Origin: Flavobacterium sp. TR2 | GTDB lineage: Bacteria; Bacteroidota; Bacteroidia; Flavobacteriales; Flavobacteriaceae | Assembly: GCF_025252405.1 (NCBI RefSeq) | Contig: NZ_CP104307.1 | Coordinates: forward strand, 1,612,001 to 1,676,000 | Length of the DNA stretch: 64,000 nt | Direction: 5' to 3' | Translations under genes and position numbers: made by a program | In this document: one piece after another, positions 33,378-54,799 of the stretch | Numbering within the stretch: the first letter of the stretch is position 1 | Layout: every line of letters begins with the position of its first letter | Notes under the pieces: model-generated | Told to the model about the DNA's origin: nothing | The model's input: only the letters and a program-made list of their open reading frames with translations | Database searches by the model: none

Positions 33378-36257
33378 TTAAATGCTCATTAAAAATCCGA
33401 TTAGATTTTCTTTTTTGTTCAGTCCTAGTTTTTTCCTTAAACGATAACGGGCCAATTCGACTCCGCCTGTAGAAATATTCATAATTTCTGCTATTTCTTT
33501 CGTCGACATATTCATTAATAGATAAGTGGATAAATCTAATTCTCTTGGAGAAATAGTTGGGTATTGTCCTTTTAAACGCTTTAAAAACTCAAAATGAACG
33601 TTTTTAATGTGTTTTTCGAGGTCTTTCCAGCTCTTATCTGTGTTTACTTCTTTTACAATGCTTTTGTGCAGTTTGCTAAACTCTGCCTTAGTGGTTTCGT
33701 CTAGAATTCCAGTATCAATGTCTTTCAGTTTATGAATGATTCCATTTAAGACTTTGTTCTTTTTTACAACTTGCAAAGAGTTGTTTACGAGTTCTTTATC
33801 TTTTGCTAAGATTTTAATTTGGAGCTTGTCGTTTTTCAGTTTTTCAATTTCCTTTTCCAAATCATGCTGTTCATGCCTGATTTTAGATTCTTTTTCAAGG
33901 TATAATCTTCTTTGTTCTATAGTTTCGTAATACCTATTTTTTCTAATTTTCAGTTTGATTCTAACAGAGATTAAATAGGCGCCAAGTAAAATGAGCATCA
34001 GGTAAAATAAATAAGCCAAAAAATGTCTATACCAAGGTGGTGATACTGTAAATTCGAATTCTGTAATATTTGACTCTATGCCATAACTATTTCTAGCTTT
34101 TAATTTCATTACATAATTGCCTTCTCTTAAATTGGTATATTCCTTTATTGCTGTAGACGACCAGCCACGCCAGTTTTCTTCGAAAGGCTCTAATTTATAG
34201 GAGTACATTACGTTTTCCTGATTTTCGTATGTTGGAGACGCAAAAGTAAATTTGACACGATTATACTTGTACGGAATGCTGTATGACTCTAATTTAGTGG
34301 TCAAATTGCCCGTTAAAATAGTGTCACCAGGATTCGAAAAGCTCTCAATAAAAGCTTTTGGTTTCGTCATAAATGTGTTTGGAATCGTCGAGTTGTAATG
34401 AGCCAGACGATCTGTTAATCCTATAAAAATGTTTTGAGGATCTATAGCATTTACTGAGATGTAATTGTTTACCAGATTACCTGTCAAGTTGGAGAATATG
34501 GCTTGTTTTTTGGTAAAAGTTCCGTTTTTGTTTTTTACCAAAACGCCAAGCGATTCATTAAACGCATACCAAAGGTTTCCGGCAGGGTCTTCAATTAAGG
34601 TGTTAATAGTCGGAATTCCATTAAATAAGTTTGTGATTTTTTTATCTTCAAAAAAGGCTTCTTGCTCAACAGAATATCTGTAGAAATGATTTTTTACTTG
34701 AAAATAAACTTTATTGTTGATGCTTTGAAGACTGTTTATTCCCTTAAATTTTTCTGATATGTTAACGTGTTTTTTGATGAAATCAAATCTTTGCAAATCT
34801 TCAGACAGTTTTACTTGATACAGAAAAGGATTTTTCTTGAGCCATAAGTAGTTTGCGTCTATTTCTACAGAAAAATTGTTGGTTGTTTCGTCAAATCCTT
34901 TTACTTGATGCAGATAATCATATCCAGTAGCAGATCGTTTGAAAACCGAAAATCCGTTATAGCTTTCACCTATGATATAGTTTTCATGCTCTGGAATCTT
35001 TTTAAACCCGAAATAACCTTTATTGTCAAGTATTTTTGATACCCTGTTGTTTTCAATAATTAATGCCCCGCTATTGCTGGCGCAAATTAATACATTGTTT
35101 AAAACCTGAATATTCCAAACTTGCGAAATTGTTCCTTCAACTCTAGTAAAAGGGCTGTCTTTAAATGAACTGCCCCATGTGTGGTAGAATAGCCCTTGGT
35201 TGGTGGCTACATAAAGATTTCCGTTATATGTTGTTGAGGCATATACTGTACCTATATTATAGCTGTAATCAAAGTAGGAGAAAGGTGAGTTTTCATTTAT
35301 GAAAGTGATACCATTATCAAGTCCAAGCCAGATATTGCTTTTCTTGTCAACAAATGATGCTAATATAGTATTGTTCTGGATTCCTTTTTGACGGTTTAAA
35401 TGCTGAATTATTTTTCCATTTAAATCACATATAATGGCTCCGTCTAATACCGAATTAAGTATGATAAACTTGTTTTTGATGATAGATCCCCCAAGAGAAG
35501 TGTTTTTCTTAATAAATTCGTTGGCTTCTGTTGCCCACGGTTTTATAATGCCGTTTTCTGATACAAAAAGACCTTTTTCTAAGGTGGCGTATAATAATTT
35601 GTTATTTGGCAATGGAAAGAGAGACCATATCTCTTTGTCATTAAAAACAGTGGTGCCTTTTATTGCCGTAAGTTTTCTGTTTTTGTATTCAAGCACGCCT
35701 AAGGTTTTATCTTGAAAATACAGTCGGTTGTTCACCAAAAACGAAAATTGAAATTTATGAGGAGCAGTTAGAGTAGTTACTTTTTCATTTTTTAGAAAAA
35801 ACACTTTGCTAAAAGACTGAAAAATGACTTCGCCATTAAAAATGTGAATTCTCCAGATCAGATTAATGTTTTCTTTGTCTATTGGGCTTAATAGATTGTA
35901 TAAAGAGTGGTATTTTAAAATTCCTTTTTCGTCATATTTGAAATACCCAAATTCGTTATTGCCGCCTACAAATATCCTTCCTAAAGCGTCAATTTTCAAG
36001 CTTCTGATCTCCGATTTGTTTGGTAAGGAGTATTTATGCCAGTTTGATCCGTCAAATTGGATCAGACCGCTATTGTTTGCAAAATAGATGTTTCCGTTTT
36101 TGTCCTGATCAATGCTCCAGTTTTGAGTGCCACCTTTATACTCTGATCGTTTATAATTTTTTATATCTGGAATTCCGATGTTTTTTACTTGTGAAAGGCT
36201 TTTAAATTGTAAGAAAAATAGTGAAATTAGGGTAAAAGATCTGACTATTGATTTCAT
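33378..36257 (-). CDS. Membrane-spanning one-component PUL regulator (propeller, Y_Y_Y, LuxR-type HTH)
   Basis: The 959-residue protein has a signal (to about 22) and a periplasmic propeller region of repeated WSIDQDKNGNIYFANNSGLI-like units. A Y_Y_Y domain follows (about 665-740, with YSYKLEPFEENWRGWSS). One membrane helix is at about 746-766, and a coiled coil at about 775-830 is rich in EKEIEKLKNDK. The LuxR/GerE-type helix-turn-helix is at about 895-955 (TISPRELDLSTYLLMNMSTK then EIAEIMNISTGGVELARYRL). It has no kinase, receiver or phosphotransfer domain, so it should signal directly through the membrane. It is divergent from the first susC gene, the normal place for a PUL regulator, and probably binds the 17-bp repeats there (inference). 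Confidence 0.92.
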   Translation of the reverse strand: MKSIVRSFTLISLFFLQFKSLSQVKNIGIPDIKNYKRSEYKGGTQNWSIDQDKNGNIYFANNSGLIQFDGSNWHKYSLPNKSEIRSLKIDALGRIFVGGNNEFGYFKYDEKGILKYHSLYNLLSPIDKENINLIWRIHIFNGEVIFQSFSKVFFLKNEKVTTLTAPHKFQFSFLVNNRLYFQDKTLGVLEYKNRKLTAIKGTTVFNDKEIWSLFPLPNNKLLYATLEKGLFVSENGIIKPWATEANEFIKKNTSLGGSIIKNKFIILNSVLDGAIICDLNGKIIQHLNRQKGIQNNTILASFVDKKSNIWLGLDNGITFINENSPFSYFDYSYNIGTVYASTTYNGNLYVATNQGLFYHTWGSSFKDSPFTRVEGTISQVWNIQVLNNVLICASNSGALIIENNRVSKILDNKGYFGFKKIPEHENYIIGESYNGFSVFKRSATGYDYLHQVKGFDETTNNFSVEIDANYLWLKKNPFLYQVKLSEDLQRFDFIKKHVNISEKFKGINSLQSINNKVYFQVKNHFYRYSVEQEAFFEDKKITNLFNGIPTINTLIEDPAGNLWYAFNESLGVLVKNKNGTFTKKQAIFSNLTGNLVNNYISVNAIDPQNIFIGLTDRLAHYNSTIPNTFMTKPKAFIESFSNPGDTILTGNLTTKLESYSIPYKYNRVKFTFASPTYENQENVMYSYKLEPFEENWRGWSSTAIKEYTNLREGNYVMKLKARNSYGIESNITEFEFTVSPPWYRHFLAYLFYLMLILLGAYLISVRIKLKIRKNRYYETIEQRRLYLEKESKIRHEQHDLEKEIEKLKNDKLQIKILAKDKELVNNSLQVVKKNKVLNGIIHKLKDIDTGILDETTKAEFSKLHKSIVKEVNTDKSWKDLEKHIKNVHFEFLKRLKGQYPTISPRELDLSTYLLMNMSTKEIAEIMNISTGGVELARYRLRKKLGLNKKENLIGFLMSI

Positions 36258-36470: not shown

Positions 36471-36520
36471 ATGTTGTGTTTTTGTAGTGTGTTAAAATTT
36501 AATTTGAAGTGTTTTTGTAA
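36471..36520 (+). promoter_or_regulatory. Paired 17-bp direct repeat upstream of susC1 (candidate operator)
   Basis: Two copies fitting WTGWWGTGTTTTTRTAR lie at 36471-36487 and 36504-36520, exactly 33 bases start to start, i.e. about three helical turns. The same pair at the same spacing lies upstream of susC2. The distal copy ends in TAG, the proximal in TAA. The divergent spacer of 345 bases holds no gene. Confidence 0.75.
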
Positions 36521-36555
36521 AGAAATTTAATCTAATACTTATTAAAATTTAACAT

Positions 36556-36563
36556 TATAATTG
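36556..36563 (+). promoter_or_regulatory. susC1 -7 element, start of the shared 43-base leader
   Basis: TATAATTG is one base from TAnnTTTG. From 36560 onward the sequence to the ATG is identical to the susC2 leader. No TTG is found at the -33 position, which fits activator dependence. Confidence 0.6.
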
Positions 36564-36602: not shown

Positions 36603-39600
36603 ATGAAATTGACAAAATTATTGATTTTTTGTGTTTCGTCTTTACTGTTTTCGGTTGTTGCATTTGCTCAGGATGTGACAATAAATGGAATCATTAATGA
36701 TGAAAGTGGATTGCCCGTCCCAGGAGCGACGGTTTTAGTAAAGGGAACCAATAAAGCAACTGCCTCTGACTTTGATGGGAAATTTCAGATTAGTGCTCCC
36801 TCTAACGGAACTTTGACAATCAGTTTCGTTGGTTTTGAAACTGTAAACGAAGCAATAGGAGGAAAAACCAAGCTCACTATTGCTCTAAAAGCAGTATCTC
36901 AAAGTTTAAATGAAGTTGTAGTTATCGGATACGGTACACAAAAGAAAGCTTTGATTACTGGAGCCTCTACAAACTTAAAAGGGGAAACGCTGCAGGAATT
37001 GAATACTGGATCTGCAATGGAAGCCCTTCAAGGTATTGCGCCGGGTATTAGTATTACAAGAAATAGCGGTGCGCCAGGAGCTGGTACTAAAGTTGTTATT
37101 CGTGGTATTGGTACAATCGGAAATTCAAATCCTTTATACATTGTAGATGGTGTCGCTGTAGGGGATATCGATTACCTGAACCCTTCGGATATTGAATCTA
37201 TTGATGTTCTAAAAGATGCGGCTTCGGCAGCAATTTATGGTTCTAGAGCAGCAAATGGGGTTGTTCTGGTAACTACGGTGAAAGGACGTAAAGGAAAACC
37301 AGCTAGAATTTCTTATGATAGTTACTTTGGAATTCAAAACATCTACAAAAATCTGGATCCTTTAAACGCGCAGGAATATATGTACATCATGGATGAAGGA
37401 AGGGTTAATGACGGGCTTGCGCCAAACGACTGGAAAAAGATGTTAACCAGCAACGATTGGTTGGAGCGTAATTATCCTGGTGCAGGAAAACAGCTTGGAG
37501 AAGATATTTGGAATAAATTGCAAAACGGCTGGACAGGAACCAATTGGATCAATGAAATGTCTAAAAAAGATGCTCCTGTAGTAAACCATGCTATTAATAT
37601 TACAGGCGGATCAGAAGATATCACTTACTCTTTAGGGGTTTCTTATTTTGATCAAGACGGTATCTTGGGAGGAAATATTATAGACGCTGGATTTAAAAGA
37701 TTGACTACAAGATTGAATACTCAAATGGTTTTGAAAAAAAATGAGAGCCATAACATCATTACAGTTGGAGAAAATTTGACATATACAAACATTCAAAAAA
37801 GAGACGTTTCTAGCGGCAATATTTATGGCAATGACTTGCATAATGCGATAACGCAAAATCCATTGCAGCCCGCTTATTGGCAGACTGCGATTGATAGAAA
37901 TATTAACGAATTTGGATTTACTCCTACGTTAGACGGCTTAAGTACAAATCAGACCAATCCTTTGGCTGTTATGTACTACAGAAGCAATTACAATTATCCA
38001 AAAGATCATAAAATTATTGGAAATGTGTTTTTAGAAGTTGAGCCTATCTCTAATCTTAGATTTAAATCGGTTTACGGAATTGATTCCTGGTTTGGCTACA
38101 ATAGAACAATGAATCCAACTTATCATTTAGGTGTGCTTTATGATGATGCAGTTGATGGGGCGACTCAGTCTCAATATTTTGGAGCTAATTCAACTTGGAC
38201 GAATACAGTTGCTTATCAAAAACAATTTGGGAATCATAATATTAACGCCGTTATTGGTACTGAATTATGGAAAAGAATTGTTGAGAATAACGTCTATGGT
38301 TCAAGAAACGGTTTGACATTTCCTAATGATCCAAAATATGCTTATTTAGACAATACAAAAAGCCCAGGTTCGGTTGCAGATATCAATACATCAGGTTTTG
38401 ATAAAGCAGCAGGAGGAGGCGCTGTTATGTCGTATTTTGCTCGTGCACAGTATGATTATAAAGAAAAATACCTGCTTTCAGCTATTATTCGTCGTGACGG
38501 ATCTTCTAACTTTGGCGATGGTCATAAGTACGGTAATTTTCCATCAGTATCTGCGGGTTGGGTTATTACCAAAGAAGATTTTATGGCCAGTACATCAAAA
38601 TATCTTGATTTCTTGAAGTTAAGAGCTAGCTGGGGTCAGAATGGTAATCAGTACACAGATTATGCTTTCTACTACTCTTCAAATATAAAATATGCCTTCC
38701 CAGGTTACTTTTTTGGAGACACCAAACCGGTTTCTGGCCAGACTGCCTATCCGGCAAAAGTGACTAACGCAGATGTTACTTGGGAAACTTCTGAACAGTT
38801 AGATTTCGGATTAGATGCAAGTTTATTCAATTCTAGATTAGGAATCACATTTGACTGGTATAAGAAAAAAACTAAAGACTGGCTTGTTTTAGCTGAATTG
38901 CCTGGAACTGCAGGTGCTGATTATCCTTATAAAAATGGTGGAGATATTGAAAATAAAGGAGTTGAATTTTCTGTAAGCTGGAAAGATAAAGTAGGCGATT
39001 TTAAATACGGTTTAACTGTGAGTGGCGCCTTTAATAAAAATGAAGTTACAAGAATTGCTAACGCAAACGGTATAATTAATGGGCCTACTAATGTCTTATC
39101 GCAAGGAACATCCGAAATTTCAAGAGCGCAAGTAGGTTATCCGATAGGAGCTTTCTATGGCTTTAAAACAGCTGGAATTTTACAGAATCAGCAAGAAGTT
39201 GATGCTTACGTAGGACCTACTGGTCAGCCTTATTTTAATGATCAGCGCCCTGGGGATGTTCGTTTTGTGGATCAAAATAATGACGGAGTAATTGATGAAA
39301 AAGATAAAGTGATTTTAGGAGATCCAAATGCAAACTTCCAATTGGGTATCCAATTAAACCTTGAGTACAAAAATGTTTATCTGAATACTACAATGGCAGG
39401 TAAGTACGGAATGCAAGTGATGCAATCGTACAGATCATTTGCTGATATGCCAAAACAGAATTATACTTCAGATGTCTTTGATCGCTGGCACGGAGAAGGA
39501 ACTTCAAACAAAATGCCTCGTTTAAGTTCAGTGTCAAATAGAAACTCAAATTATATTTCAGATATCTATATGCAAAATGCTGATTATCTAAGAATTAATA

Positions 39601-39833
39601 ATTTAACTCTAGGTTACAACTTTAATGAATTATTGAAAGATTTTAAATTTATTTCAAATCTTAAATTCTACGTTGCTGTAAATAATTTGTACACATTTAC
39701 AAAATATGACGGTATGGATCCAGAGGTTCGCTGGTCAGGAGATAATGATAAAGCTCCATGGGCTTCTGGAATAGATCTTGGCCTATATCCGCAATCTAGA
39801 ACAGTAATGTTTGGATTAAGTGCAGATTTTTAA
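36603..39833 (+). CDS. SusC-like TonB-dependent outer-membrane transporter (first unit)
   Basis: The 1076-residue protein has a signal ending FSVVAFAQ and a carboxypeptidase-regulatory-like domain (about 24-100, GIINDESGLPVPGATVLVKG). The TonB box region LNEVVVIGYGTQKK and the plug (YIVDGVAVGDIDYLNPSDIE, then SIDVLKDAASAAIYGSRAAN) follow, then a 22-strand barrel ending in a phenylalanine (FGLSADF). SusC proteins import oligosaccharides captured by SusD. Barrel loops include an EF-hand-like DQNNDGVIDEKDKV segment. It is the first gene of susC1-susD1-lipoprotein and is close to the second susC at the N-terminus only. Confidence 0.96.
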   Translation: MKLTKLLIFCVSSLLFSVVAFAQDVTINGIINDESGLPVPGATVLVKGTNKATASDFDGKFQISAPSNGTLTISFVGFETVNEAIGGKTKLTIALKAVSQSLNEVVVIGYGTQKKALITGASTNLKGETLQELNTGSAMEALQGIAPGISITRNSGAPGAGTKVVIRGIGTIGNSNPLYIVDGVAVGDIDYLNPSDIESIDVLKDAASAAIYGSRAANGVVLVTTVKGRKGKPARISYDSYFGIQNIYKNLDPLNAQEYMYIMDEGRVNDGLAPNDWKKMLTSNDWLERNYPGAGKQLGEDIWNKLQNGWTGTNWINEMSKKDAPVVNHAINITGGSEDITYSLGVSYFDQDGILGGNIIDAGFKRLTTRLNTQMVLKKNESHNIITVGENLTYTNIQKRDVSSGNIYGNDLHNAITQNPLQPAYWQTAIDRNINEFGFTPTLDGLSTNQTNPLAVMYYRSNYNYPKDHKIIGNVFLEVEPISNLRFKSVYGIDSWFGYNRTMNPTYHLGVLYDDAVDGATQSQYFGANSTWTNTVAYQKQFGNHNINAVIGTELWKRIVENNVYGSRNGLTFPNDPKYAYLDNTKSPGSVADINTSGFDKAAGGGAVMSYFARAQYDYKEKYLLSAIIRRDGSSNFGDGHKYGNFPSVSAGWVITKEDFMASTSKYLDFLKLRASWGQNGNQYTDYAFYYSSNIKYAFPGYFFGDTKPVSGQTAYPAKVTNADVTWETSEQLDFGLDASLFNSRLGITFDWYKKKTKDWLVLAELPGTAGADYPYKNGGDIENKGVEFSVSWKDKVGDFKYGLTVSGAFNKNEVTRIANANGIINGPTNVLSQGTSEISRAQVGYPIGAFYGFKTAGILQNQQEVDAYVGPTGQPYFNDQRPGDVRFVDQNNDGVIDEKDKVILGDPNANFQLGIQLNLEYKNVYLNTTMAGKYGMQVMQSYRSFADMPKQNYTSDVFDRWHGEGTSNKMPRLSSVSNRNSNYISDIYMQNADYLRINNLTLGYNFNELLKDFKFISNLKFYVAVNNLYTFTKYDGMDPEVRWSGDNDKAPWASGIDLGLYPQSRTVMFGLSADF

Positions 39834-39849
39834 TATTAAAACATTGACA

Positions 39850-41556
39850 ATGAAAAAACTAAGATATATAATAGCAATCTCGGCAATTTTTGTGGCATCT
39901 AGCTGTAATGATGAGCTAGATACGGAGAACCTTTCAGAAAAGAGCTTAGATAATTTTTATAGAACTCCAACAGATATAAATGAAGCAATGGCTGGGGTTT
40001 ATAATGCCATCTATACAGCAAATGTTCATAGCGAAGAACAAGTGGCGGCCAATTTGATGGATAATATGATGTTTGGCGGGGGAGGTCCTGATGATAAATC
40101 GGCTAAATGGGTTGATAATTTTGAAGACCCTGCAGAAGATACCTATCGTGATATGTGGAAACAATCTTATAATGGGATTTCGAGAGCGAATGCTATCATA
40201 GAAAAAGCATCGTTGGCAGATTTTTCTAAGTATTTTAATACGCCTCAAGAAGCAGAAGATTTTAAAAAACAGGCTGTTGGTGAAGCCTTATTTATGAGAG
40301 CTTTCTTTTACTTCAGATTGGCTAAATTCTTTGGAGGAGTGCCAATGATCATAAAATATGATGGAGATCGATTGGTAGCGAGATCAACTTATACCGAAAC
40401 ATTTGCGCAAATCGCATCCGATTTAAAATTGGCTATCGAAACTATGCCTGCTACGCCATTTCCAAGTATTCCGACTTCGAGATACGGTCATGCAAATAAA
40501 TGGGTTGCTGAAGCATACTTAGGTCGCGTATTTTTATTTTACACTGGATACATGAGTAATATTGAAAAGAAGGCAACTACAGACTTGCCACTTGTTGGAG
40601 GCGGTTCTTTGACAGGAGCGCAAGTGGCTGCATACCTAGAGGATTGCATCAATAATAGCGGACATAAATTAGCATCTGATTTTAGAAATCTTTGGGCTTA
40701 TTCTTATGTAAATAAAAGTGCAGGAAAGAATGTATTGCCTTGGGCAACAACAGAAGGCTTAGCATGGGTAGGTCAAGACGGAGTCACTCCGACATTTGGA
40801 ACAGGAAACTATGAGACTATGTTTGTGCAAAGATTCTCTTTTGGTGACTGGGGCTGGGCAAATGGTAATATTTATACCAACAGATTAGCCTTGTTCAATT
40901 CGCTGCGCGGTAATTCACTAGTTCCTTTTGGAGAAGGATGGGGATGGTGTACTGTAAACCCTAAATTGTATAGCGGTTGGGATGATGCAGATCCAAGAAA
41001 ACGTGGTTCTATACTAGAAGTAGGCAGAGCCGATCAAGGAACAGATGGTTATGCAAAAGACAAAGGAGATCATGAAACAGGATATTTCAATAAAAAATAT
41101 ACTTCGTTGCAGCATGATAATGGCAAAGGATCAAACGTAGGTATGTTTGTTCAGATGTATGCTTGGTCAAATGCAGATATGCAGTTAATGCATGCTCAGG
41201 ATTTTATTTTCATGCGTTTTGCAGATGTACTATTAATGCATTCTGAAATTACAAAAACAGCAGACGGTATGAATGCGGTAAGATTGAGAGCGCACTTAGG
41301 CCCAGTTGCTTATTCTCTTGATAATATTAAAACTGAGCGTCTGCACGAATTAGCTTTTGAAGGGCTGCACTGGTTTGACCTTGTTCGTTGGGGAGATGTT
41401 GATACCGCATTTAATGATGTAATTCAAGTGAGAAACTCTGGAGTTGATGCAAATTACAGTGTCAAATACAGATCTGAAACAAAAGGTTTAGTGCCTATTC
41501 CAGAAGCAGAAGTAAGACTATTAAATGGAGTTTACAATCAGAATCCAGGTTGGTAA
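39850..41556 (+). CDS. SusD/RagB-like glycan-binding lipoprotein (first unit)
   Basis: The 568-residue lipoprotein has the signal MKKLRYIIAISAIFVASSC (C19) followed by an acidic NDELDTEN stretch typical of surface-exported lipoproteins. It has SusD tetratricopeptide-like helices and the C-terminal signature ERLHELAFEGLHWFDLVRWG, ending LVPIPEAEVRLLNGVYNQNP. It binds glycan at the cell surface and caps the partner SusC. The start is ATG 39850; an in-frame GTG at 39820 lies inside susC1 and would displace the signal peptide. The gap to susC1 is 16 bases. Confidence 0.95.
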   Translation: MKKLRYIIAISAIFVASSCNDELDTENLSEKSLDNFYRTPTDINEAMAGVYNAIYTANVHSEEQVAANLMDNMMFGGGGPDDKSAKWVDNFEDPAEDTYRDMWKQSYNGISRANAIIEKASLADFSKYFNTPQEAEDFKKQAVGEALFMRAFFYFRLAKFFGGVPMIIKYDGDRLVARSTYTETFAQIASDLKLAIETMPATPFPSIPTSRYGHANKWVAEAYLGRVFLFYTGYMSNIEKKATTDLPLVGGGSLTGAQVAAYLEDCINNSGHKLASDFRNLWAYSYVNKSAGKNVLPWATTEGLAWVGQDGVTPTFGTGNYETMFVQRFSFGDWGWANGNIYTNRLALFNSLRGNSLVPFGEGWGWCTVNPKLYSGWDDADPRKRGSILEVGRADQGTDGYAKDKGDHETGYFNKKYTSLQHDNGKGSNVGMFVQMYAWSNADMQLMHAQDFIFMRFADVLLMHSEITKTADGMNAVRLRAHLGPVAYSLDNIKTERLHELAFEGLHWFDLVRWGDVDTAFNDVIQVRNSGVDANYSVKYRSETKGLVPIPEAEVRLLNGVYNQNPGW

Positions 41557-41584: not shown

Positions 41585-42376
41585 ATGAAAATTCATAATA
41601 TAAAATATTTACTAATTGCTGTGTGTATGCTGGTCATTTCGGCATGTGACCCAATTGTAGACGAACAGCATTTGGAGAATTCGACAGACGTTGCCGGAGT
41701 TGAATTAACAACCAAACAAACACCTCCCGGGGGAAACAAGATTACCTTAAGTATGAATACGCCTGGAGTTACAGGCTATTGGGACTATAATTTAGGAAAA
41801 GCGCTGACAAACGAAGTGACTATTGTTTATCCTATTCCAGGGAAATCGACTTTTACATTTGTGGGAACACTTGGAGCTGAATTCTTTACTAAAACAATTG
41901 ACGTGCAAGTTGATAGGCTAGATACCCCATTAGATCAAGATTGGTATGACTTGGTGAGCAACAACACTGCCGCTGGTAAAACATGGGTTTTTGATGGCGT
42001 TGCTGGTACAGGCGATCAGTATTGGTTTATGTCTCCCCCAGATAATCCAGATTCAGCTATGAGTGCATGGTGGAATGCAGGAGACTGCTGTCCTCCGTTG
42101 GACGTAAGCGGTAAAATGCACTTCGACTTAAATGGCGCGGCAAATTACAATCACTATCAAACTGCTACTGCAGCAGCCGAAAAAGGAAGTTTTGTGATGG
42201 ATATTGCGAATAAAAAGCTATACATTATTAATTCGAAAATTTTAGGGTACGAAGCTGGAAATGCCGCTAACGAGTACAGTATTATTACACTTACAGAAGA
42301 CAAATTAGTACTGTATGTTCCGAGAAGCTTAAAAGATGCTACAACAGGCTGGACATTTGTTTACAGACCTGAATAA
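41585..42376 (+). CDS. Putative surface glycan-binding lipoprotein
   Basis: I do not recognise a named family. The 263-residue lipoprotein has the signal MKIHNIKYLLIAVCMLVISA, with the lipobox cysteine at residue 21, then an Ig/PKD-like domain (about 35-115, NEVTIVYPIPGKSTFTFVGT). A beta-rich C-terminal domain follows (about 120-263), full of surface aromatics (YWFMSPP, AWWNAGDCCPP, WTFVYRPE). The exposed tryptophans and tyrosines and its place right after susD1 suggest a surface glycan-binding protein (SGBP). Adjacent cysteines in GDCCPP are unusual for an exported protein. It is the last gene of the first SusCD unit and is followed about 150 bases later by a terminator. The second unit has no counterpart. 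Confidence 0.75.
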   Translation: MKIHNIKYLLIAVCMLVISACDPIVDEQHLENSTDVAGVELTTKQTPPGGNKITLSMNTPGVTGYWDYNLGKALTNEVTIVYPIPGKSTFTFVGTLGAEFFTKTIDVQVDRLDTPLDQDWYDLVSNNTAAGKTWVFDGVAGTGDQYWFMSPPDNPDSAMSAWWNAGDCCPPLDVSGKMHFDLNGAANYNHYQTATAAAEKGSFVMDIANKKLYIINSKILGYEAGNAANEYSIITLTEDKLVLYVPRSLKDATTGWTFVYRPE

Positions 42377-43243: not shown

Positions 43244-43293
43244 TTGATGTGTTTTTATAATATTATTTTTTTCTTTTTGATGTGTTTTTGTAA
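43244..43293 (+). promoter_or_regulatory. Paired 17-bp direct repeat upstream of susC2 (candidate operator)
   Basis: Copies at 43244-43260 (TTGATGTGTTTTTATAA) and 43277-43293 (TTGATGTGTTTTTGTAA) are 33 bases apart. The proximal copy ends 34 bases before the -7 element, against 35 bases at susC1. Confidence 0.75.
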
Positions 43294-43327
43294 TGATTGT
43301 TAGCTGTGAAAAGTAAAATTTAAGTTT

Positions 43328-43335
43328 TAGTATTG
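43328..43335 (+). promoter_or_regulatory. susC2 -7 element, start of the shared 43-base leader
   Basis: TAGTATTG corresponds to TATAATTG at susC1. The leader from 43332 to the ATG at 43375 is identical to that of susC1. No -33 TTG is visible. Confidence 0.6.
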
Positions 43336-43374: not shown

Positions 43375-46300
43375 ATGAAATTAACAAAATTACTTGTTTT
43401 TTGTATTTCATCTTTGTTATTCTCGGTTATAGCTGTGGCTCAGGATGTCACAGTAAATGGAATAATTAATGATGAAAATGGTTTACCTGTTCCAGGTGCA
43501 ACAGTTTTATTAAAAGGTACTACAAAATCTACTGCGTCAGACTTTGACGGAAAATTTCAGATTCAAGCACCTTCAAACGGAACATTAACAATTACCTTTA
43601 TTGGTTATTCTACAGTATCAGAAGCTGTAAATGGAAGAACAAAACTTACTATTCAATTAAAGCCAGAATCACAATCTTTAAATGAGGTTGTAGTGGTTGG
43701 ATACGGGACTCAAAAGAAATCTGTTGTAACTGGGGCAATCTCTAGCGTAAAATCGGCTGATCTTGAAAAAGTGCCAAACGGAAGAGTTGAGCAGGCTTTA
43801 CAGGGTAGAGTAGCAGGGGTTTCTGTTGCTGCAGTTTCTGGACAGCCAGGTGAAAAGTCAAAAGTTCGCGTTAGAGGTATCACTACATTTAGAGAAGGAG
43901 GAAATGACCCTCTATGGGTTGTTGACGGTATTGCTGTAGATGCAAATGCAATTGGTTTTATCAATCAAAGCGATATTGAGTCTATCGAGGTGCTTAAAGA
44001 TGCTGCGTCTGCTGCAATCTATGGTACTCGTGCGGCTACAGGGGTTATCTTAGTTACTACTAAAAAAGGTAAAGCAGGAAAAATTTCTGTAAACTATAAT
44101 GGTTTTGCAGGTATATCAGCACCAGCAAAAAAATTAGATATGTTGAATGCGACTCAGTATGCAACTTTAATGAATGAAAAATCTGTAAATGATGGTGGTG
44201 CAATTAAATATCAAAATCCAGCATCTTTTGGAAAAGGTACAAATTGGCAAGATGCAATCTTTAATGATTCTGCTTTCAGATACACACACGAATTAAGCAT
44301 TAGCGGTGGTGGTGAAAAATCTACTTTCTACGCTTCTTTCGGAATTCAAGATCAAGAAGGTATTGTTACGACAGATATTTCTAACTATACAAAGAAAAAC
44401 TTTAGATTAAACTCTACTCACAAAATTTCTGATTACTTTACTTTTGGACAGACTTTTGGATATACACACCAAAAAACAAAAGGTATTGGAAACACAAACA
44501 GTGAGTTCGGAGGACCTTTAAGTTCTGCAATCAACTTAGATCCGCTTACTCCACTAGTAGTTACGGACCCTACTGAAGCAAATACAGGATTTTATACTAA
44601 TCCAAATGTTGTTAGAGATGCAAATGGTAATCCTTACGGAATTTCTTCTTTAGTACAGCAAGAGATGACAAATCCTCTTGGATATATTCAAACTAGATTA
44701 GGAGGATACAACTGGTCAGACGATTTTGTTGGGAATGCTTATTTAGAGGCTAACATTACAAGCCACTTAAAGTTTAGAACGACACTTGGTGGTAAATTAG
44801 CTTATTGGGGAGATGAAATGTTTACTCCAGTTTTCTTCTTAAACCCAAACATGAAAGCGGATAGAAATAACTACAGCCAAAACAACAATAAATCTTTAGC
44901 ATGGACATTAGAGAATACTTTAAGTTATGCTAATAAATTTGGAGATCACAACGTGAGTGTTTTAGCTGGACAAGGAGCTTATGTTGAAAACATTGGAGGT
45001 TCTATTGGAGTAACAATGTTCGGATTGCCAATTACAAGCTACAAAGATGCTTCTTTTAACTTCGATATTCCGCAATCTGATAGAGTTAACAGAGCAAGCG
45101 ATTTTGTAGAGCACAAATTATCTTCATTGTTTTTACGTGCTAACTACGATTACATGGAAAAATATCTTTTTACAGGTATTGTTCGTCGTGATGGTTCAAC
45201 TCGTTTTGGTGAAAACAAAAAATGGGGAGTTTTCCCTTCATTCTCTCTAGGATGGGTACTTTCTAAAGAAGGTTTCTGGAAAGAAAACAATGTAGTTAAT
45301 ACTTTAAAACTACGCGGAGGTTACGGAGTTGTAGGTAATGATAACATTGATGAATTTAAATATAGAGCTACAGTTGTTGGAGGTTATAACTATGCTGTAG
45401 GAACTACAGGAGGAATTACAACGGGATACGGAAACTCTACGCTTCCAAATGCAAACTTAGGATGGGAGGAAACATCTCAAACGACTGTTGGTCTTGATGC
45501 GAAGTTGTTTAATGATTTTTCTCTTACGCTTGATTACTACAAAAAAACAACAACAGGAATCTTAAGAAACGTTGTAATTCCTGGATATGTTGGAGTAGCT
45601 GAAGCGCCTTCTGCAAATATTGCTGATATGGACAACAGCGGTTTTGAGGTAGAATTAGGATACAAGAAAAGGCTTGGAGAATTTAATTTAGGTGTTAATG
45701 GTAACGTTGCTTACTTGAAAAACGAAATTACGTATGTAGGTTCATCTACAAACTTTATTGTTGGAGATGCTACTTTCCAATCTATGGGACCTGTAACTAG
45801 AACACAAGTTGGACACTCATTTAACGAATTTTACGGTTATAAAACAGCTGGAATTTTTCAAAATGCTGCAGAAGTTGCAGCATACAAAAATGCATCAGGA
45901 GGTCTAATTCAGCCAAATGCTAGACCTGGAGATTTCCGTTGGGTAGATTCTAATAATGATGGGAAGATTACAGAAGACGATAAACAATTCTTAGGAACAA
46001 ACGTGCCTAAATATACTTTTGGTCTTACAATAAACTTAGATTATAAAAACTTTGACTTTATGGCATTTACTCAAGGAGCAGCCGGAAGCAAAATTTTCCA
46101 AGGTTTAAGAAGGCTAGACGTATTAAACGCAAACTATCAGACAAAAGCTTTAGATCGTTGGACAGGAGAAGGAACTTCAAATGATTATCCAAGATTGACA
46201 AATGACGATCCAAATAAAAATTACACAAATATGTCTGATTTTTATCTTGAAAAAGGAAATTATCTACGCTTAAAAGTGGTTACTGTTGGATACACAATGC

Positions 46301-46485
46301 CAACTAATTTGTCGTCAAAAATTGGAGCAGATAAAGTTCGTTTTTACCTAACAGGAGAAAACTTAGTCACTTTTACAAAGTACACTGGATATGATCCAGA
46401 AATTGGAGGTCAAGTTTATGGTGTAGATAAAGGAGTTTATCCGCAAGCAAGATCTATTCTATTTGGAGCTAACGTTCAATTTTAA
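43375..46485 (+). CDS. SusC-like TonB-dependent outer-membrane transporter (second unit)
   Basis: The 1036-residue protein has the same N-terminal plan as the first SusC: signal ending FSVIAVAQ, regulatory-like domain with GIINDENGLPVPGATVLLKG, LNEVVVVGYGTQKK box, and plug with WVVDGIAVDANAIGFINQSD. It ends in the barrel terminus FGANVQF. Identity to the first paralogue is high over the first about 120 residues and falls sharply in the barrel, which fits import of a different or larger oligosaccharide (inference). An acidic SNNDGKITEDDK loop resembles a calcium site. It is followed by susD2 after 15 bases. Confidence 0.96.
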   Translation: MKLTKLLVFCISSLLFSVIAVAQDVTVNGIINDENGLPVPGATVLLKGTTKSTASDFDGKFQIQAPSNGTLTITFIGYSTVSEAVNGRTKLTIQLKPESQSLNEVVVVGYGTQKKSVVTGAISSVKSADLEKVPNGRVEQALQGRVAGVSVAAVSGQPGEKSKVRVRGITTFREGGNDPLWVVDGIAVDANAIGFINQSDIESIEVLKDAASAAIYGTRAATGVILVTTKKGKAGKISVNYNGFAGISAPAKKLDMLNATQYATLMNEKSVNDGGAIKYQNPASFGKGTNWQDAIFNDSAFRYTHELSISGGGEKSTFYASFGIQDQEGIVTTDISNYTKKNFRLNSTHKISDYFTFGQTFGYTHQKTKGIGNTNSEFGGPLSSAINLDPLTPLVVTDPTEANTGFYTNPNVVRDANGNPYGISSLVQQEMTNPLGYIQTRLGGYNWSDDFVGNAYLEANITSHLKFRTTLGGKLAYWGDEMFTPVFFLNPNMKADRNNYSQNNNKSLAWTLENTLSYANKFGDHNVSVLAGQGAYVENIGGSIGVTMFGLPITSYKDASFNFDIPQSDRVNRASDFVEHKLSSLFLRANYDYMEKYLFTGIVRRDGSTRFGENKKWGVFPSFSLGWVLSKEGFWKENNVVNTLKLRGGYGVVGNDNIDEFKYRATVVGGYNYAVGTTGGITTGYGNSTLPNANLGWEETSQTTVGLDAKLFNDFSLTLDYYKKTTTGILRNVVIPGYVGVAEAPSANIADMDNSGFEVELGYKKRLGEFNLGVNGNVAYLKNEITYVGSSTNFIVGDATFQSMGPVTRTQVGHSFNEFYGYKTAGIFQNAAEVAAYKNASGGLIQPNARPGDFRWVDSNNDGKITEDDKQFLGTNVPKYTFGLTINLDYKNFDFMAFTQGAAGSKIFQGLRRLDVLNANYQTKALDRWTGEGTSNDYPRLTNDDPNKNYTNMSDFYLEKGNYLRLKVVTVGYTMPTNLSSKIGADKVRFYLTGENLVTFTKYTGYDPEIGGQVYGVDKGVYPQARSILFGANVQF

Positions 46486-46500: not shown

Positions 46501-48009
46501 ATGAAAACGATAAAATTTAAATATATATATGTAGCCGTGGCAATGGCGGTTTTAGGATCTTGCTCTGAAGATTTTGTGACCATCAACCCAGAAGGTAAAT
46601 TTGATACAAATACGTATTTTTCTAATGAGCAGCAATGTTATGCGGCTTTAATTGGAGTTTACGATCCGATGAGAAAAAACACTGGAGGTTTTGAAAACAT
46701 GGTAGCCATGCTGAATGCTGGTTCGGATGATTTTTATGCTGGTGGAGGTAGCTCTACAGATGGAACAGGAATCCAAAACTTCTCAACACACTCACTATCT
46801 TCAGTTACTATTCCGGGAAGTTACTGGAATGATCACTATCAAGGTATTTCTAGAGCAAATCAGTTGTTAATTAAGTTGCCAGCAGCTTCAATGAATGATG
46901 CGGTACGAAATAGATTTGCAGCAGAAGCTAAAACACTACGTGCACTTTACTATTTTAATTTAGTACGAATGTTCAAAAACCTTGCATTAGTTTTAGAGCC
47001 ATTATCTACAGAAACAATCTACACTCCTGAGCAAGTTGCGCCAGAAGTTATTTATGCTCAAATCGAGAAAGATTTAACTGAGGCTATTGCGGTTTTGCCA
47101 AATAATGTGGCTAAGGATACTGAAGCAGGAAGATTTAATAAAGGAGCGGCTCAAGCACTTTTAGGAAAAGTATATTTGTACGAAGGTAAAAAGACCGAAG
47201 CAGCTGCAGTATTAGCAGAAGTAAATGGTACTCCAGGCGAGACAAACCAATACGGAAATAAATTGTTGGATAATTTTAGCGACCTATGGGTAACATCTAA
47301 TAAATTCAATGCAGAATCTTTAATAGAGGTATCTCATAGTAGTGCAGGTAACTCTGACTGGACATTCTGGGGATCTGGTAGAGACGAAGGAAACTCTTTA
47401 AACATTATGGTTGGACCTAGAGGATATTCTAGACCAGCAGGTTCTACAGCACCAAATCTTCCTTCAGGATGGGCTTTCAACGTTGCAACTCAAAAATTAT
47501 ATGATGCAATGCAAGGCGATCCACGTAAAGATGCTACAATTCTTGATTTAAAAGCCCTAAAAGCAGCAGGCAAAGCAAATTATATTCCAGCTTACCAAGA
47601 TACAGGATATTTCTTGAACAAATACCTTCCAAGACAGTCAGATGTTAGTACAGGTGGAGGTAACTCAGAGTTGAACTACAAGCAAAACTCTTATGTAATC
47701 AGACTTGCAGATACTTACTTGATGGAAGCAGAAGCTTTAGGATCTGGAGCTAGAGCGCAAGCATTGCTTGATGCAGTAAGAAAAAGAGCTGGATTAGGTT
47801 CAGTACCTGTAACATTAGCTGCTATTAAGCACGAAAGAAGAATGGAATTAGCAGGTGAAGGACATAGATTCTTTGATTTAGTAAGATGGGGAGATGCGGC
47901 AGCTGCATTATCTGACAGAGGCTTTGATGCTGGAACAGATGAGATTTTCCCAATTCCGTACACAGAACTTAACGGTACTAAATTGAAACAAAATCCTAAC
48001 TACCAATAA
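46501..48009 (+). CDS. SusD/RagB-like glycan-binding lipoprotein (second unit)
   Basis: This 502-residue lipoprotein has the signal MKTIKFKYIYVAVAMAVLGS, with C21 followed by the acidic SEDF. SusD features are present: YYFNLVRMFKNLALVLEPLS helix near 155, GAAQALLGKVYLYEGKKTEA near 218, and C-terminal IKHERRMELAGEGHRFFDLV then RWGD, ending IFPIPYTELNGTKLKQNPNY. It partners the second SusC. It is shorter than the first SusD (568) and only distantly similar. The operon then ends in a terminator before the glycoside hydrolase block. Confidence 0.95.
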   Translation: MKTIKFKYIYVAVAMAVLGSCSEDFVTINPEGKFDTNTYFSNEQQCYAALIGVYDPMRKNTGGFENMVAMLNAGSDDFYAGGGSSTDGTGIQNFSTHSLSSVTIPGSYWNDHYQGISRANQLLIKLPAASMNDAVRNRFAAEAKTLRALYYFNLVRMFKNLALVLEPLSTETIYTPEQVAPEVIYAQIEKDLTEAIAVLPNNVAKDTEAGRFNKGAAQALLGKVYLYEGKKTEAAAVLAEVNGTPGETNQYGNKLLDNFSDLWVTSNKFNAESLIEVSHSSAGNSDWTFWGSGRDEGNSLNIMVGPRGYSRPAGSTAPNLPSGWAFNVATQKLYDAMQGDPRKDATILDLKALKAAGKANYIPAYQDTGYFLNKYLPRQSDVSTGGGNSELNYKQNSYVIRLADTYLMEAEALGSGARAQALLDAVRKRAGLGSVPVTLAAIKHERRMELAGEGHRFFDLVRWGDAAAALSDRGFDAGTDEIFPIPYTELNGTKLKQNPNYQ

Positions 48010-48178: not shown

Positions 48179-49633
48179 ATGAAAAAAAATAGCCTAAAAA
48201 TTTTATGCCTTTTGTTTGCCGCAGCAGCTTTTGCACAACAGCCCAAAACAAAAAAAGAGTTTACAACCAACGGCAAAAAAATAACCGTTTATACCACTGC
48301 AGAAAATTCAAAGTTACGACTGACTACTACAGATAATTTGACTTTTTCTGCTGCAAAACAGCCTCTAGAAACAGAAACCTCTGTTTTTGTAGAACCAGCC
48401 AAAAAGTTTCAGACTTTTATGGGAATCGGAGGGGCTATTACAGATGCCAGTGCCGAAATATTTGCTAAACTTTCAAAAGAAAAACAAGCAGAATTTTTAA
48501 ATGCTTACTACGATCAGCAAAAAGGAATTGGCTATTCTTTGCTAAGAACAACCATTCAAAGTTCTGATTTTAGCAGCGGAAGCTACTCTTATATCGAAGA
48601 AGGAGACAAGGAACTTAAGACTTTTTCTATTGACCATGACAGGCAATATCGTATTCCTCTAATAAAACAAGCCATCCAAAAAGCAGGAGGAAAGCTTACA
48701 ACGTACGCAGCACCTTGGTCGCCAAATGCTTTTATGAAAAGCAACAAAAATGTGCTAAAAGGAGGAACCTTGCTTCCTGAATACTATCAGACTTGGGCAA
48801 ATTTTTACGTGAAATTTATTAAAGCTTATGAAAAAGAAGGAATCCCGATTTGGGGAACTTCAACACAAAATGAGCCAATGGCTGTTCAAACTTGGGAATC
48901 TTGCATTTACACAGCAGAAGCAGAAAGAGATTTTATCAAAAATTATCTTGGGCCAACTTTGAAAAAAGAAAATCTTGGAGATAAAAAAATCATTGTTTGG
49001 GATCACAACCGCGATTTGATGAATTATCGCGCTAACGTAATTTACTCAGATCCAGAAGCATCAAAATATGTTTGGGGAATGGGATTTCACTGGTACGAAA
49101 CGTGGTCTGGCGGTGCGCCGATGTTTGATAATGTAGGGAAAGTAAATGAAGCGTATCCAGATAAAAAGCTGATGTTTACAGAAGGATGCATTGAAAAATT
49201 TGACGCAGCAAAATATCAATTTTGGGGTAATGCAGAGCGTTACGGAATTAACATGATTCATGATTTTAACAACGGAACAGTTGCTTGGACAGATTGGAAT
49301 ATTCTTCTAGACCAGAACGGTGGTCCAAATCATGTTGGAAATTTCTGTTTTGCGCCAATTCATGCAGATACTACCACAGGAGAGTTAATTTACACTCCAT
49401 CTTATTATTACATTGGACACTTTTCAAAGTTTATCCGTCTAAACGCAGTGCGAGTTAGCTCTGCAACAAGCAAAAGCGCTGTATTAAGCACCTCTTTTTT
49501 AAATGCTGACGGGACTATGGCTACTATTGTCATGAACCAATCAGCTAATGATCTTACTTACAATTTAATTATTGGTGATCAGAAGGCAGAAGTGAAAATT
49601 CCAGCACACGCTATACAAACACTTGTTTATTAA
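48179..49633 (+). CDS. Glycoside hydrolase family 30 enzyme, type A, copy 1
   Basis: The 484-residue secreted enzyme has a signal (to about 20, ending AAAAFAQ) and a GH30 TIM barrel with side beta-domain. The acid/base E232 is in TQNEPM and the nucleophile E335 is in FTEGC. Family landmarks include GIGGAITDASAEIF, APWSPNAFMK and GFHWYETW. GH30 enzymes of Bacteroidota cleave beta-glucosyl or beta-1,6-glucan linkages with retention. It is the neighbour and closest relative of the next gene, indicating tandem duplication. The signal looks like signal peptidase I type, so a periplasmic site is likely (inference). It opens the hydrolase block after the susD2 terminator. Confidence 0.92.
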   Translation: MKKNSLKILCLLFAAAAFAQQPKTKKEFTTNGKKITVYTTAENSKLRLTTTDNLTFSAAKQPLETETSVFVEPAKKFQTFMGIGGAITDASAEIFAKLSKEKQAEFLNAYYDQQKGIGYSLLRTTIQSSDFSSGSYSYIEEGDKELKTFSIDHDRQYRIPLIKQAIQKAGGKLTTYAAPWSPNAFMKSNKNVLKGGTLLPEYYQTWANFYVKFIKAYEKEGIPIWGTSTQNEPMAVQTWESCIYTAEAERDFIKNYLGPTLKKENLGDKKIIVWDHNRDLMNYRANVIYSDPEASKYVWGMGFHWYETWSGGAPMFDNVGKVNEAYPDKKLMFTEGCIEKFDAAKYQFWGNAERYGINMIHDFNNGTVAWTDWNILLDQNGGPNHVGNFCFAPIHADTTTGELIYTPSYYYIGHFSKFIRLNAVRVSSATSKSAVLSTSFLNADGTMATIVMNQSANDLTYNLIIGDQKAEVKIPAHAIQTLVY

Positions 49634-49652
49634 TATTTTGCAATGAAGTAAT

Positions 49653-49691
49653 GAAGAGGACTAATTTGAATCAACCAATTTAGTCTTCTCT
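49653..49691 (+). terminator. Weak hairpin between the two type A GH30 genes
   Basis: GAGGACTAA (49656-49664) pairs with TTAGTCTTC (49680-49688), with a G-U pair, followed by a broken T-rich run. It may be an attenuator rather than a full stop. Confidence 0.45.
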
Positions 49692-49726
49692 TTGCTTTTA
49701 ATTTTTAAAACGATTTTTTAAGCAAT

Positions 49727-51178
49727 ATGAAAATTACCTCTCAAATATTTTTATCGGCCTTTGTCTTACTGCAATTAAGTTGTTTTACTTCAAAACTAAC
49801 AGCTCAAAAAAATAATAAAATAAAGGTTTATACTACCGCCGAAAAAACAAACTTGAAATTATCATTGTCAAATGATCTGATTTCAAAAAACAGCACTACA
49901 CAACAAAAAACAGCAACAGTATCTATTACTGTAAATGCTGAAAAAACAGACCAAACCTTCCTCGGAATCGGAGGAGCAATTACAGATGCAAGCGCAGAAG
50001 TTTTTGCAAAATTATCGCCAAAAAAACAGCAGGAATTCTTGACTGCTTATTACGATAAAAAGAAAGGTATTGGGTACACTTTGGCAAGAACAAACATTCA
50101 CAGCTGCGATTTTAGCAGCGACAGCTATACTTATATTTCTGAAGGAGACAAAGATCTAAAGACTTTTAATATAGATCATGATCGAAAATACAGAATCCCT
50201 TTAATTAAAAAAGCAATTGAAACAGCCGGCGGAAAACTAACTTTATTTGTCAGCCCATGGAGTCCCCCAGCTTTCATGAAAGACAATAATGATATTTTGC
50301 ACGGCGGCGTTTTATTGCCCGAATTTGCACCAGCATGGGCATTGTACTATGCCAAATTCATAAAAGAATACGAAAAAGAAGGAATTCCAATCTGGGGATT
50401 AACAGTTCAAAACGAACCAATGGCCAAACAAAGATGGGAATCTTGCATCTACACGCCAGAAGCAGAAAGAGACTTTCTTAAAAATCATCTTGGGCCAACT
50501 TTAGAAAAAGAGGGGCTAGGCTCTAAAAATGTTATTATTTGGGATCATAATCGTGGAGATATGCTAACCAAAAGAGCCAATCTTGTTTTTTCAGATCCTG
50601 AAGTTGCTAAATATGCTTGGGGAATCGGATTTCATTGGTATGAAACTTGGAACGGAGGCCCGCCTCAATTTGAGTCTGTAGCAAAAGTTCATGAAGCATT
50701 TCCAAACAAAAAACTGCTTTTTACAGAAGGCTGTATCGAAAAATTTGACGCTTCAAAATATCAGTTTTGGGGAAATGCAGAACGTTACGGAATCAATATG
50801 ATTCATGATTTTAATAATGGCACTGTGGGATGGACAGACTGGAATATTCTTTTAGACCAAAACGGAGGGCCAAATCATGTCGGAAACTTCTGTTTTGCAC
50901 CTATTCATGCCGATACAACAAAAGACGAGCTGATTTATACACCAATGTATTACTATATTGGGCATTTCTCAAAATTCATAAGACCAAATGCAAAAAGAGT
51001 GCTTGAAACCATAAGCGACAAATCCTTATTAAGTACTTCTTTTAAAAATCCTGATGGACAATTGATTACCATTGTAATGAATCAATCTGAAAAAGAGATG
51101 GTTTATTCTTTAGAAAATCAAAAAGAAAAAACGACAATTACAATTCCGGCTCATGCCATACAGAGTATTGTATATTAA
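49727..51178 (+). CDS. Glycoside hydrolase family 30 enzyme, type A, copy 2
   Basis: The 483-residue enzyme is closely related to the preceding gene. The acid/base E230 is in VQNEPM, the nucleophile E334 in FTEGC, and the SPWSPPAFMKDN and HNRGDMLTKRAN segments are present. The N-terminus offers two readings: a lipobox at LQLSC (C19), or a signal-peptidase-I site after LTAQ. Its location is therefore uncertain. Residues around the active site (WDHNRGDMLTK against WDHNRDLMNY) differ from copy 1, so specificity may have diverged. Role as for GH30 beta-glucanases/glucosidases. Confidence 0.92.
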   Translation: MKITSQIFLSAFVLLQLSCFTSKLTAQKNNKIKVYTTAEKTNLKLSLSNDLISKNSTTQQKTATVSITVNAEKTDQTFLGIGGAITDASAEVFAKLSPKKQQEFLTAYYDKKKGIGYTLARTNIHSCDFSSDSYTYISEGDKDLKTFNIDHDRKYRIPLIKKAIETAGGKLTLFVSPWSPPAFMKDNNDILHGGVLLPEFAPAWALYYAKFIKEYEKEGIPIWGLTVQNEPMAKQRWESCIYTPEAERDFLKNHLGPTLEKEGLGSKNVIIWDHNRGDMLTKRANLVFSDPEVAKYAWGIGFHWYETWNGGPPQFESVAKVHEAFPNKKLLFTEGCIEKFDASKYQFWGNAERYGINMIHDFNNGTVGWTDWNILLDQNGGPNHVGNFCFAPIHADTTKDELIYTPMYYYIGHFSKFIRPNAKRVLETISDKSLLSTSFKNPDGQLITIVMNQSEKEMVYSLENQKEKTTITIPAHAIQSIVY

Positions 51179-51206
51179 TTGTCAAGCTAACTAAAAAACC
51201 ACAAAA

Positions 51207-52676: not shown

Positions 52677-52811
52677 CCTAAATAAGCATTTCAATTTTGA
52701 AACTCGCTTTTAGTTTAAATTTTTTTTGTTAGCGGTAAAACCAAGAAATAGAAAAAATAATATTTATCTTGATATTCAATTTATTAACTAAACCATTTAA
52801 ATAATAAAAAG

Positions 52812-53885: not shown

Positions 53886-53957
53886 CATAACTTTTAAATA
53901 GATTTTTTTCTTGTAAGCCTTGTAAACACTAGCTTTACAAGATTAAAATTTTTTAAC

Positions 53958-54797
53958 ATGAAAAAGATAAACAAACTTGTTTTTGCAGTAATGCTGCTTT
54001 TAGCCGTGAACTCATTTTATGGTCAGAATTTAAAAATTATGACTTATAATATCCGTTTGGATGTTGCCTCAGATGGAGAAAATGCATGGCTAAAACGAAA
54101 GGATTATTTCACAGCCCAAATTGGGTTTTATAGCCCGGAAATTTTTGGAGTTCAGGAAGCAACGCCAAATCAAGTTTTAGATATTGCATCGGCTCTGCCA
54201 AATTATAACAGATTTGGAGTAGGAAGAGAAGAAGACGGACTGGGAGAAGCCTGTACGATTTACTATAAAAAAGATCGTTTTAAAGTCGAACAATCTAGCA
54301 CTTTCTGGCTGTCCGAAACTCCAAATGTGGTTTCAAGAGGTTGGGATGCAGCTTGCAACAGAGTTTGCACTTACGGACTTTTTAAAGATTTAAAAACTAA
54401 AAAAATATTTTGGGTTTTCAATTTGCATTTGGACCATATGGGTGAAGAAGCAAGAATAAAAGGCGTACAGCTTGTTCTTGCTAAAATTAAGGAATTAAAC
54501 ACCAAAAATTATCCAGCTTTTTTAATGGGTGATTTTAATTCTGAACCAAATACAACGCAAATTGGCGAAATCAAAAAAGTAATGGATGACACTAGAGATG
54601 TTTCAATAGAAAAACCTTTCGGGCCTTCAGGAACTTTCAACGATTTCAAACACAACGAGCCCGTAACATTATTATTAGACTATATTTTTATTTCAAAAAA
54701 TAGTGGTTTAAAAATTCAAAAACACGCAGTGCTAAGTGATTCTAAAGATTTAAAATATCCGTCAGATCATTTGCCTGTCCTAATAGAAATAGATTAA
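53958..54797 (+). CDS. Endonuclease/exonuclease/phosphatase (EEP) fold hydrolase
   Basis: The 279-residue protein has a Sec signal (ending VNSFYGQ) and an intact EEP active site. It has the asparagine in MTYNIRLDV, the metal glutamate in GVQEAT, the histidine region in NLHLDHMG, MGDFNSEPN, and the terminal catalytic histidine in SDHLPV. The EEP superfamily includes nucleases, sphingomyelinases and inositol-phosphate phosphatases. Exported members of this subtype are common in Bacteroidota glycan loci, with unknown substrate. It is two bases upstream of the next GH30 gene, so clearly in the operon. It may act on a phosphate substituent of the glycan (speculative). Confidence 0.88.
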   Translation: MKKINKLVFAVMLLLAVNSFYGQNLKIMTYNIRLDVASDGENAWLKRKDYFTAQIGFYSPEIFGVQEATPNQVLDIASALPNYNRFGVGREEDGLGEACTIYYKKDRFKVEQSSTFWLSETPNVVSRGWDAACNRVCTYGLFKDLKTKKIFWVFNLHLDHMGEEARIKGVQLVLAKIKELNTKNYPAFLMGDFNSEPNTTQIGEIKKVMDDTRDVSIEKPFGPSGTFNDFKHNEPVTLLLDYIFISKNSGLKIQKHAVLSDSKDLKYPSDHLPVLIEID

Positions 54798-54799
54798 AA

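Follow-up and report, generated by a model that had tools for sequence, protein, structure and literature searches.

Paired direct repeats before two susC genes of Flavobacterium sp. TR2 as predicted operators of a divergent LuxR-type propeller regulator

Known direct-repeat operators and the susCD locus of Flavobacterium sp. TR2

The SusR-like operators of Bacteroides have been predicted as direct repeats 67 or 77 bp apart, separated by a long unconserved spacer and lying on one DNA face (Ravcheev et al. 2013, PMC3878776). The same source describes the SusR HTH as unlike other known domains, and neither LuxR nor GerE occurs in its main text. HTCS proteins of Bacteroides carry a kinase, a receiver and an AraC-type HTH, and the direct-repeat sites predicted for them in that text are 21 bp apart on average (PMC3878776). 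A LuxR-annotated gene comes first in many Muricauda clusters of a laminarin study, the available portion of which gives no operator (PMC13188888), and the AT-rich direct repeats in the accessible part of a xylan study belong to a different regulator, XylRA of Vibrio (PMC12125979). The available sections of a report on coevolution in F. johnsoniae are unrelated to the operator pair (PMC10197871). We found no operator for LuxR-type propeller regulators in the open-licence literature, some of it available as partial text.

The locus described here lies in a window of 64,000 nucleotides (the whole stretch of DNA analysed, to which the coordinates refer) from Flavobacterium sp. TR2. A gene on the minus strand codes for a 959-aa regulator (33378..36257). 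The plus strand then carries susC1 (SusC/RagA; 36603..39833), susD1 (39820..41556), a gene for a 263-aa protein (41585..42376), susC2 (43375..46485) and susD2 (46501..48009), with both susD genes assigned by Pfam, and the two susC genes are paralogues. Further downstream on the same strand (48179..58464) come, in order, four GH30 genes, a GH16 gene, a gene for an endonuclease/exonuclease/phosphatase-family protein and a GH3 gene. These enzyme families point to beta-1,3/1,6-glucan as the substrate of the locus. The endonuclease/exonuclease/phosphatase-family gene (53958-54797) sits amid the glycosidase genes. The 263-aa protein has no Pfam or NCBIfam family and travels with susC1/susD1: in each of the 11 fetched loci whose susD1 is complete, it lies 3' of that gene (64-90% identity), and it is perhaps a surface glycan-binding protein.

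Pfam finds in the regulator a Reg_prop propeller, a Y_Y_Y domain (residues 677-738) and a GerE/LuxR HTH (residues 902-953; 29.7 bits against a curated cut-off of 23.5). A signal peptide is recognisable by eye, and hydropathy reveals one hydrophobic stretch (about 745-771) between the sensor and the HTH. The predicted topology is that of a membrane-anchored protein with a periplasmic sensor and a cytoplasmic HTH, and the cytoplasmic stretch resembles a coiled coil by eye. The sensor part matches PDB entries 4a2l/4a2m (E 1.1e-11). Kinase, receiver and AraC-type HTH are absent, the Pfam matches being Y_Y_Y, Reg_prop, GerE and a sub-threshold sigma-70 region 4. The best 80 of 191 named relatives are all labelled Flavobacterium or Flavobacteriaceae, and Flavobacterium johnsoniae strain CI04 has an orthologue at 65% identity.

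MalT, a LuxR/NarL-type protein, binds direct repeats. The regulator shares with the LuxR/NarL-type (GerE) proteins the HTH family, by Pfam, and a recognition helix that aligns with that of EL222. It differs from them by a membrane tether preceded by a propeller sensor and by its AT-rich 20-bp copies with an 11-bp internal repeat and a 33-bp pair. Like the SusR-like systems, as the main text of Ravcheev et al. (PMC3878776) presents them, it would be a membrane-anchored activator of a susCD locus with two direct repeats and an unconserved spacer on one DNA face, and in both cases there are two spacings about one turn apart (67/77 bp there, 33/43 bp here). Unlike theirs, however, the HTH here passes the Pfam GerE model, and the spacing is about half as long. 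With the HTCS proteins of the same text it has in common the propeller/Y_Y_Y periplasmic sensor, through its match to the two-component sensor 4a2l, and direct-repeat operators, whereas it lacks the kinase and receiver, has a LuxR-type HTH and uses 33 bp. Judged from sequence, the pair looks as if it works like the other direct-repeat operators of polysaccharide loci, as a variant whose sensor type is shared with them and whose LuxR-type HTH and spacing are its own.

The repeat pair in the genome, the genus and the family

The two copies before susC1 lie at 36471..36490 (distal) and 36504..36523 (proximal), with the 17-mers ATGTTGTGTTTTTGTAG (36471-36487) and TTGAAGTGTTTTTGTAA (36504-36520). 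Those before susC2 lie at 43244..43263 (distal) and 43277..43296 (proximal), with the 17-mers TTGATGTGTTTTTATAA (43244-43260) and TTGATGTGTTTTTGTAA (43277-43293); all four are on the plus strand. The sequence-only reading had described them as 17-bp repeats, and direct reading confirmed that all four match the 17-mer pattern WTGWWGTGTTTTTRTAR and stand 33 bp apart, start to start, in both promoters. The length of the unit did not hold, as promoter alignment and a guided scan gave a conserved unit of about 20 bp, TTGATGTGTTTTTGTAANGW. No inverted (palindromic) half-site, as found in many LuxR-type sites, was seen by eye.

Across the entire 5.1-Mb genome, the 17-mer is matched at four places, all of them the window copies (reversed control, 0). 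A scan of the window with two mismatches allowed returned seven matches, four of them exact, against 1.58 expected. As a 33-bp pair with at most three mismatches, the pattern occurs twice in the genome, both times as a window pair (reversed control, 0), and the whole-genome scan found no second, unlinked pair. Single 20-mer sites with at most three mismatches number 25, including the four window copies, against 14 in the control. Four single sites outside the locus, with the surrounding ORFs inspected, have at most two mismatches, one of them a single mismatch. The latter is a lone operator copy (G000:C1:2147402-2147421, locus L317) about 110 bp before an ORF start, with no partner copy.

We extended the comparison to 299 genomes of the genus, with regulator orthologues accepted at E <= 1e-150. 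Orthologues were present in 106 of the 299, and the pair pattern in 92 genomes (112 places; reversed control, matches in 5 genomes). All 92 belong to the 106 with the regulator, and none of the 193 genomes that lack it has a pair match; throughout the genus, the pair follows the presence of the divergent regulator gene. Nor did the pair recur at many unrelated AT-rich spacers, the finding that would have counted against the sequence-only reading, in the TR2 genome or the 299 genus genomes scanned with reversed controls. Three places, each with three mismatches and with no regulator, susC or susD match nearby, are probably chance (G047 contig 31, G113 contig 6 and G158 contig 7). G113 and G158 each also hold an exact pair. 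G047 has no other pattern match, and a variant 33-bp pair accompanies its regulator; because this genome was counted only through the chance match, the true count is 91 of 106.

In 59 of 60 fetched pair loci, the regulator is divergent from the pair and susC lies downstream, the exception being the chance match in G047; the regulators at these loci are 55-97% identical. One of the 59 (L052) has regulator and pair 1.1 kb apart, perhaps after loss of the susC1 operon. Nine of the 60 loci have two pairs, and in eight of them each pair precedes a full-length susC. In the ninth, from G201 (L064, 9192-10232), a susC1 remnant keeps its own pair, about 1 kb from the susC2 pair. In G002 (contig 63; L155, 3062-4950) an exact pair precedes the gene of a 585-aa secreted protein with a type 9 secretion sorting tail (Pfam); a distant susC follows this gene, and the first gene under the operator is not susC. 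In G243 (L140), the operator pair persists beside a second regulator and susC that have decayed.

The family set comprised 299 genomes from 236 genera. The pair pattern was present in ten of them, eight outside the genus (reversed control, three). Three of the eight, from three other genera (G317, G417 and G430), match with 0-1 mismatches, and all three have a divergent regulator (53-56% identity) and a susC (63-66%). Each of the remaining five matches outside the genus has three mismatches and no adjoining regulator or susC, as expected of chance.

Another DNA-binding protein, such as a global CRP-like or an unlinked regulator, could use the pair, in which case the divergent LuxR-type protein would be a mere neighbour. 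The excess of single 20-mer sites in the genome over the control is what such a protein might leave. The lack of pair matches in all 193 regulator-free genomes argues against it, as do the missing second pair in the TR2 genome and the site changes that accompany changes in the regulator's recognition helix (below), and we regard this explanation as quite unlikely.

The regulator is present and the pattern unmatched in 14 genus genomes. We fetched 20 further regulator places, from 13 of these 14 genomes (one with two copies), from G047 and from second copies in five other genomes; the fourteenth genome, G211, was left out as its gene starts at a contig end. Eighteen of the 20 places have enough upstream DNA, 17 failing the pattern and one (L129) matching it with three mismatches. 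A motif-guided scan of spacings from 20 to 59 bp nevertheless placed the best pair of all 18 at 33 bp (11), 32 bp (5) or 43 bp (2). Over the 107 regulator genes with readable upstream DNA, from 101 of the 106 regulator genomes, the best pair fell at 33 bp in 100, at 32 bp in 5 and at 43 bp in 2. Outside the 107 stand G052 and G103 (cut by contig ends), G211 and G237 (gene at contig end), G076 and the decayed G243 copy. In a Markov null, one of these three spacings was best in 7 of 60 sequences. The median scan score was 43, against 29 in the null. Observed scores went down to 33, which is also the top score reached in the null; the weakest pairs therefore exceed the null by their spacing only. 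We also scanned spacings of 16-120 bp with no motif supplied. Of the 111 rows, among them four that derive from the decayed copy and many whose loci had been selected with the motif, 95 had their best spacing at 33 bp and none at 21, 67 or 77 bp. With 10.5 bp to a turn, 33, 43 and 32 bp correspond to 3.1, 4.1 and 3.0 turns; each is near a whole number of turns and therefore all keep the copies on one DNA face.

The match counts in genome, window and genus, set against their controls, rule out chance in AT-rich DNA as the origin of the pattern. A broader reading would give the pairs no function and explain their likeness by chance or by descent, the two AT-rich promoters being duplicates. The two paralogous susC genes share their leader from the -7 element to the ATG, as this reading would have it. 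The spacers have diverged and the repeats have not, however, and the pair is kept beside diverged regulators both in the genus and in the three other genera, with the site fixed and the best spacing at 32, 33 or 43 bp in 107 of 107. We consider a functionless pair extremely improbable.

Promoter geometry and the proposed activation

The -7-like elements are TATAATTG for susC1 (36556..36563, plus strand, at +84 from the pair start) and TAGTATTG for susC2 (43328..43335, plus strand), both read directly. The proximal copies end 35 bp (susC1) and 34 bp (susC2) before them, as the sequence-only reading had reported. A TAnnTTTG-like -7 element is the Bacteroidota promoter consensus. With one change allowed, such an element was recognised in 95 of 105 promoters, 85 of which have it at +83, counted from the start of the pair. 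In 80 of the 105 promoters, the distance between pair start and susC ATG is exactly 130 bp. Conservation over 105 distinct promoters averaged 1.46 and 1.60 bits per base in the two copies, 0.38 in the spacer and 1.02 in the leader before the ATG. In the window, the leaders from -7 element to ATG (36564-36602 and 43336-43374) are identical in both susC genes; they are conserved in relatives and end in an A-rich run before the ATG.

Both window promoters had also been said to lack a -33 box, and direct reading found neither TTTG nor TTG 13-27 bp before the -7 element of susC1 or susC2. Across the relatives this claim stood for TTTG, present in 1 of 95 promoters (background 9%), and was less clean for TTG. 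The promoters thus have the -7 element and lack the -33 TTTG, as activator-dependent promoters do; TTG, however, occurs in 35 of 95 (background 20%).

This geometry alone would also be compatible with a regulator that binds the pair and represses susC until a ligand releases it. The sites lie upstream of the promoter, though, and not over it; 94 of 95 promoters are without TTTG in the -33 zone, as activator-dependent promoters should be; and the paired upstream repeats resemble those that the main text of PMC3878776 predicts for the activator SusR. Repression appears very unlikely to us.

We conclude instead that both pairs are very probably operators of the divergent regulator (33378-36257), which would be a membrane-tethered one-component LuxR-type activator bound on one DNA face. 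The proposal that this protein is the common activator gained support from the co-occurrence in the genus, the 107 spacings, the three matches in other genera, the helical phase and a co-variation of helix and site that involves few events. Comparison provides the assignment of regulator to site, the spacing, the promoter geometry and the co-variation; binding, stoichiometry, activation and ligand are inferred. A beta-glucan oligosaccharide would bind the periplasmic propeller/Y_Y_Y sensor, and the signal would pass through the one membrane helix and then the cytoplasmic coiled coil. LuxR-type HTH domains would then bind the two copies of TTGATGTGTTTTTGTAANGW, which share one face of the DNA at a distance of 33 bp (about three turns). 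With the proximal copy about 35 bp before the -7 element, the bound HTH domains may compensate for the absent TTTG -33 box, and RNA polymerase would be recruited to both susCD operons of one glucan locus.

Recognition helix, internal 11-bp repeats and related regulators

Residues 934-938 of the regulator (ELARY) align with KMHRG of EL222 (E 0.012), and the equivalent residues of NarL touch bases. Among the 104 regulators whose site lay in the first search interval, Val935 goes with a changed proximal site in 9 of 9 and Leu935 with the classic TGANG form in 95 of 95, the site classes having been named after the data were seen. Two further regulators (L120 and L122), whose pair lies just beyond that interval, are both classic with Leu935. 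The changed sites of the Val935 regulators are TGTTTGG, TGTATGG and TGTATTG and, together with Tyr938His, TGATAAGG and TGCTGAGG. In a tree calculated with the HTH left out, the residue must change twice, and grouping all Val935 regulators in a single clade is rejected (p-AU 3e-7). Independent comparisons number only two, and each goes the predicted way (sign test p 0.5), making the apparent co-variation of site and recognition helix suggestive and not significant. Where these helix residues vary, it is the first half of the site that changes with them, the second half being mostly constant, a pattern that two equal half-sites would not lead one to expect.

Within the 20-bp copies, self-identity is highest at an offset of 11 (0.56; next 0.46 at 5), and the internal repeat TTG-N4-G-N3-TTG-N4-G is complete in 124 of 214 copies (53 of 106 distinct). 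Because of this 11-bp tandem repeat, each copy may take two HTH domains head to tail, and the full operator would then hold four; the copies in which the repeat is incomplete count against this picture.

The TR2 genome encodes two related regulators of similar length with a C-terminal HTH, L109 (31% identity) and L110 (29%). L109 has Reg_prop and Y_Y_Y in Pfam and a GerE below the cut-off (20 vs 23.5); GerE is the sole Pfam match of L110. The next gene, in the same direction as the regulator, codes for a secreted GH16 protein (L109) or is a susC (L110). A 33-bp rule for the whole regulator family was not supported, as relatives of L109 and L110 have no consistent 33-bp pair. Given no motif, a search before the next gene returned an 8-mer repeat at 11 bp in 12 of 12 promoters of the L109 type and 27 of 29 of the L110 type (the next best spacing occurring in 6 and 15 promoters, respectively), counts that are not independent since the promoters are related to each other. 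The tandem repeats are ACCGTA-N5-ACCGTA in L109 (4470-4687), conserved in 12 of 12 relatives, and ACATCA-N5-ACATCA in L110 (12387-12630), conserved in 25 of 29. Their half-sites thus differ from those of the regulator described here.

These repeats suggest that HTH domains bind head to tail, one turn after another, and that the present operator consists of two such units separated by three steps. We tentatively extend this, at odds somewhat below even, to the class of membrane-tethered propeller/LuxR-type regulators of Flavobacteriaceae polysaccharide genes. The class may read an 11-bp lattice, with HTH domains head to tail at 11-bp steps and with the half-site word and the number of units differing; here the units would be at 0, 11, 33 and 44. 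If so, a specificity code would involve the recognition-helix positions that correspond to 935, 936 and 938, and the operators of other such loci would be readable from sequence.

Polysaccharide loci are the main route by which Bacteroidota use complex glycans. One LuxR-type propeller regulator now gains a defined predicted site, a spacing rule and candidate specificity residues, and the two susC promoters would be expected to stand under its joint control, which can be tested in a tractable Flavobacterium.
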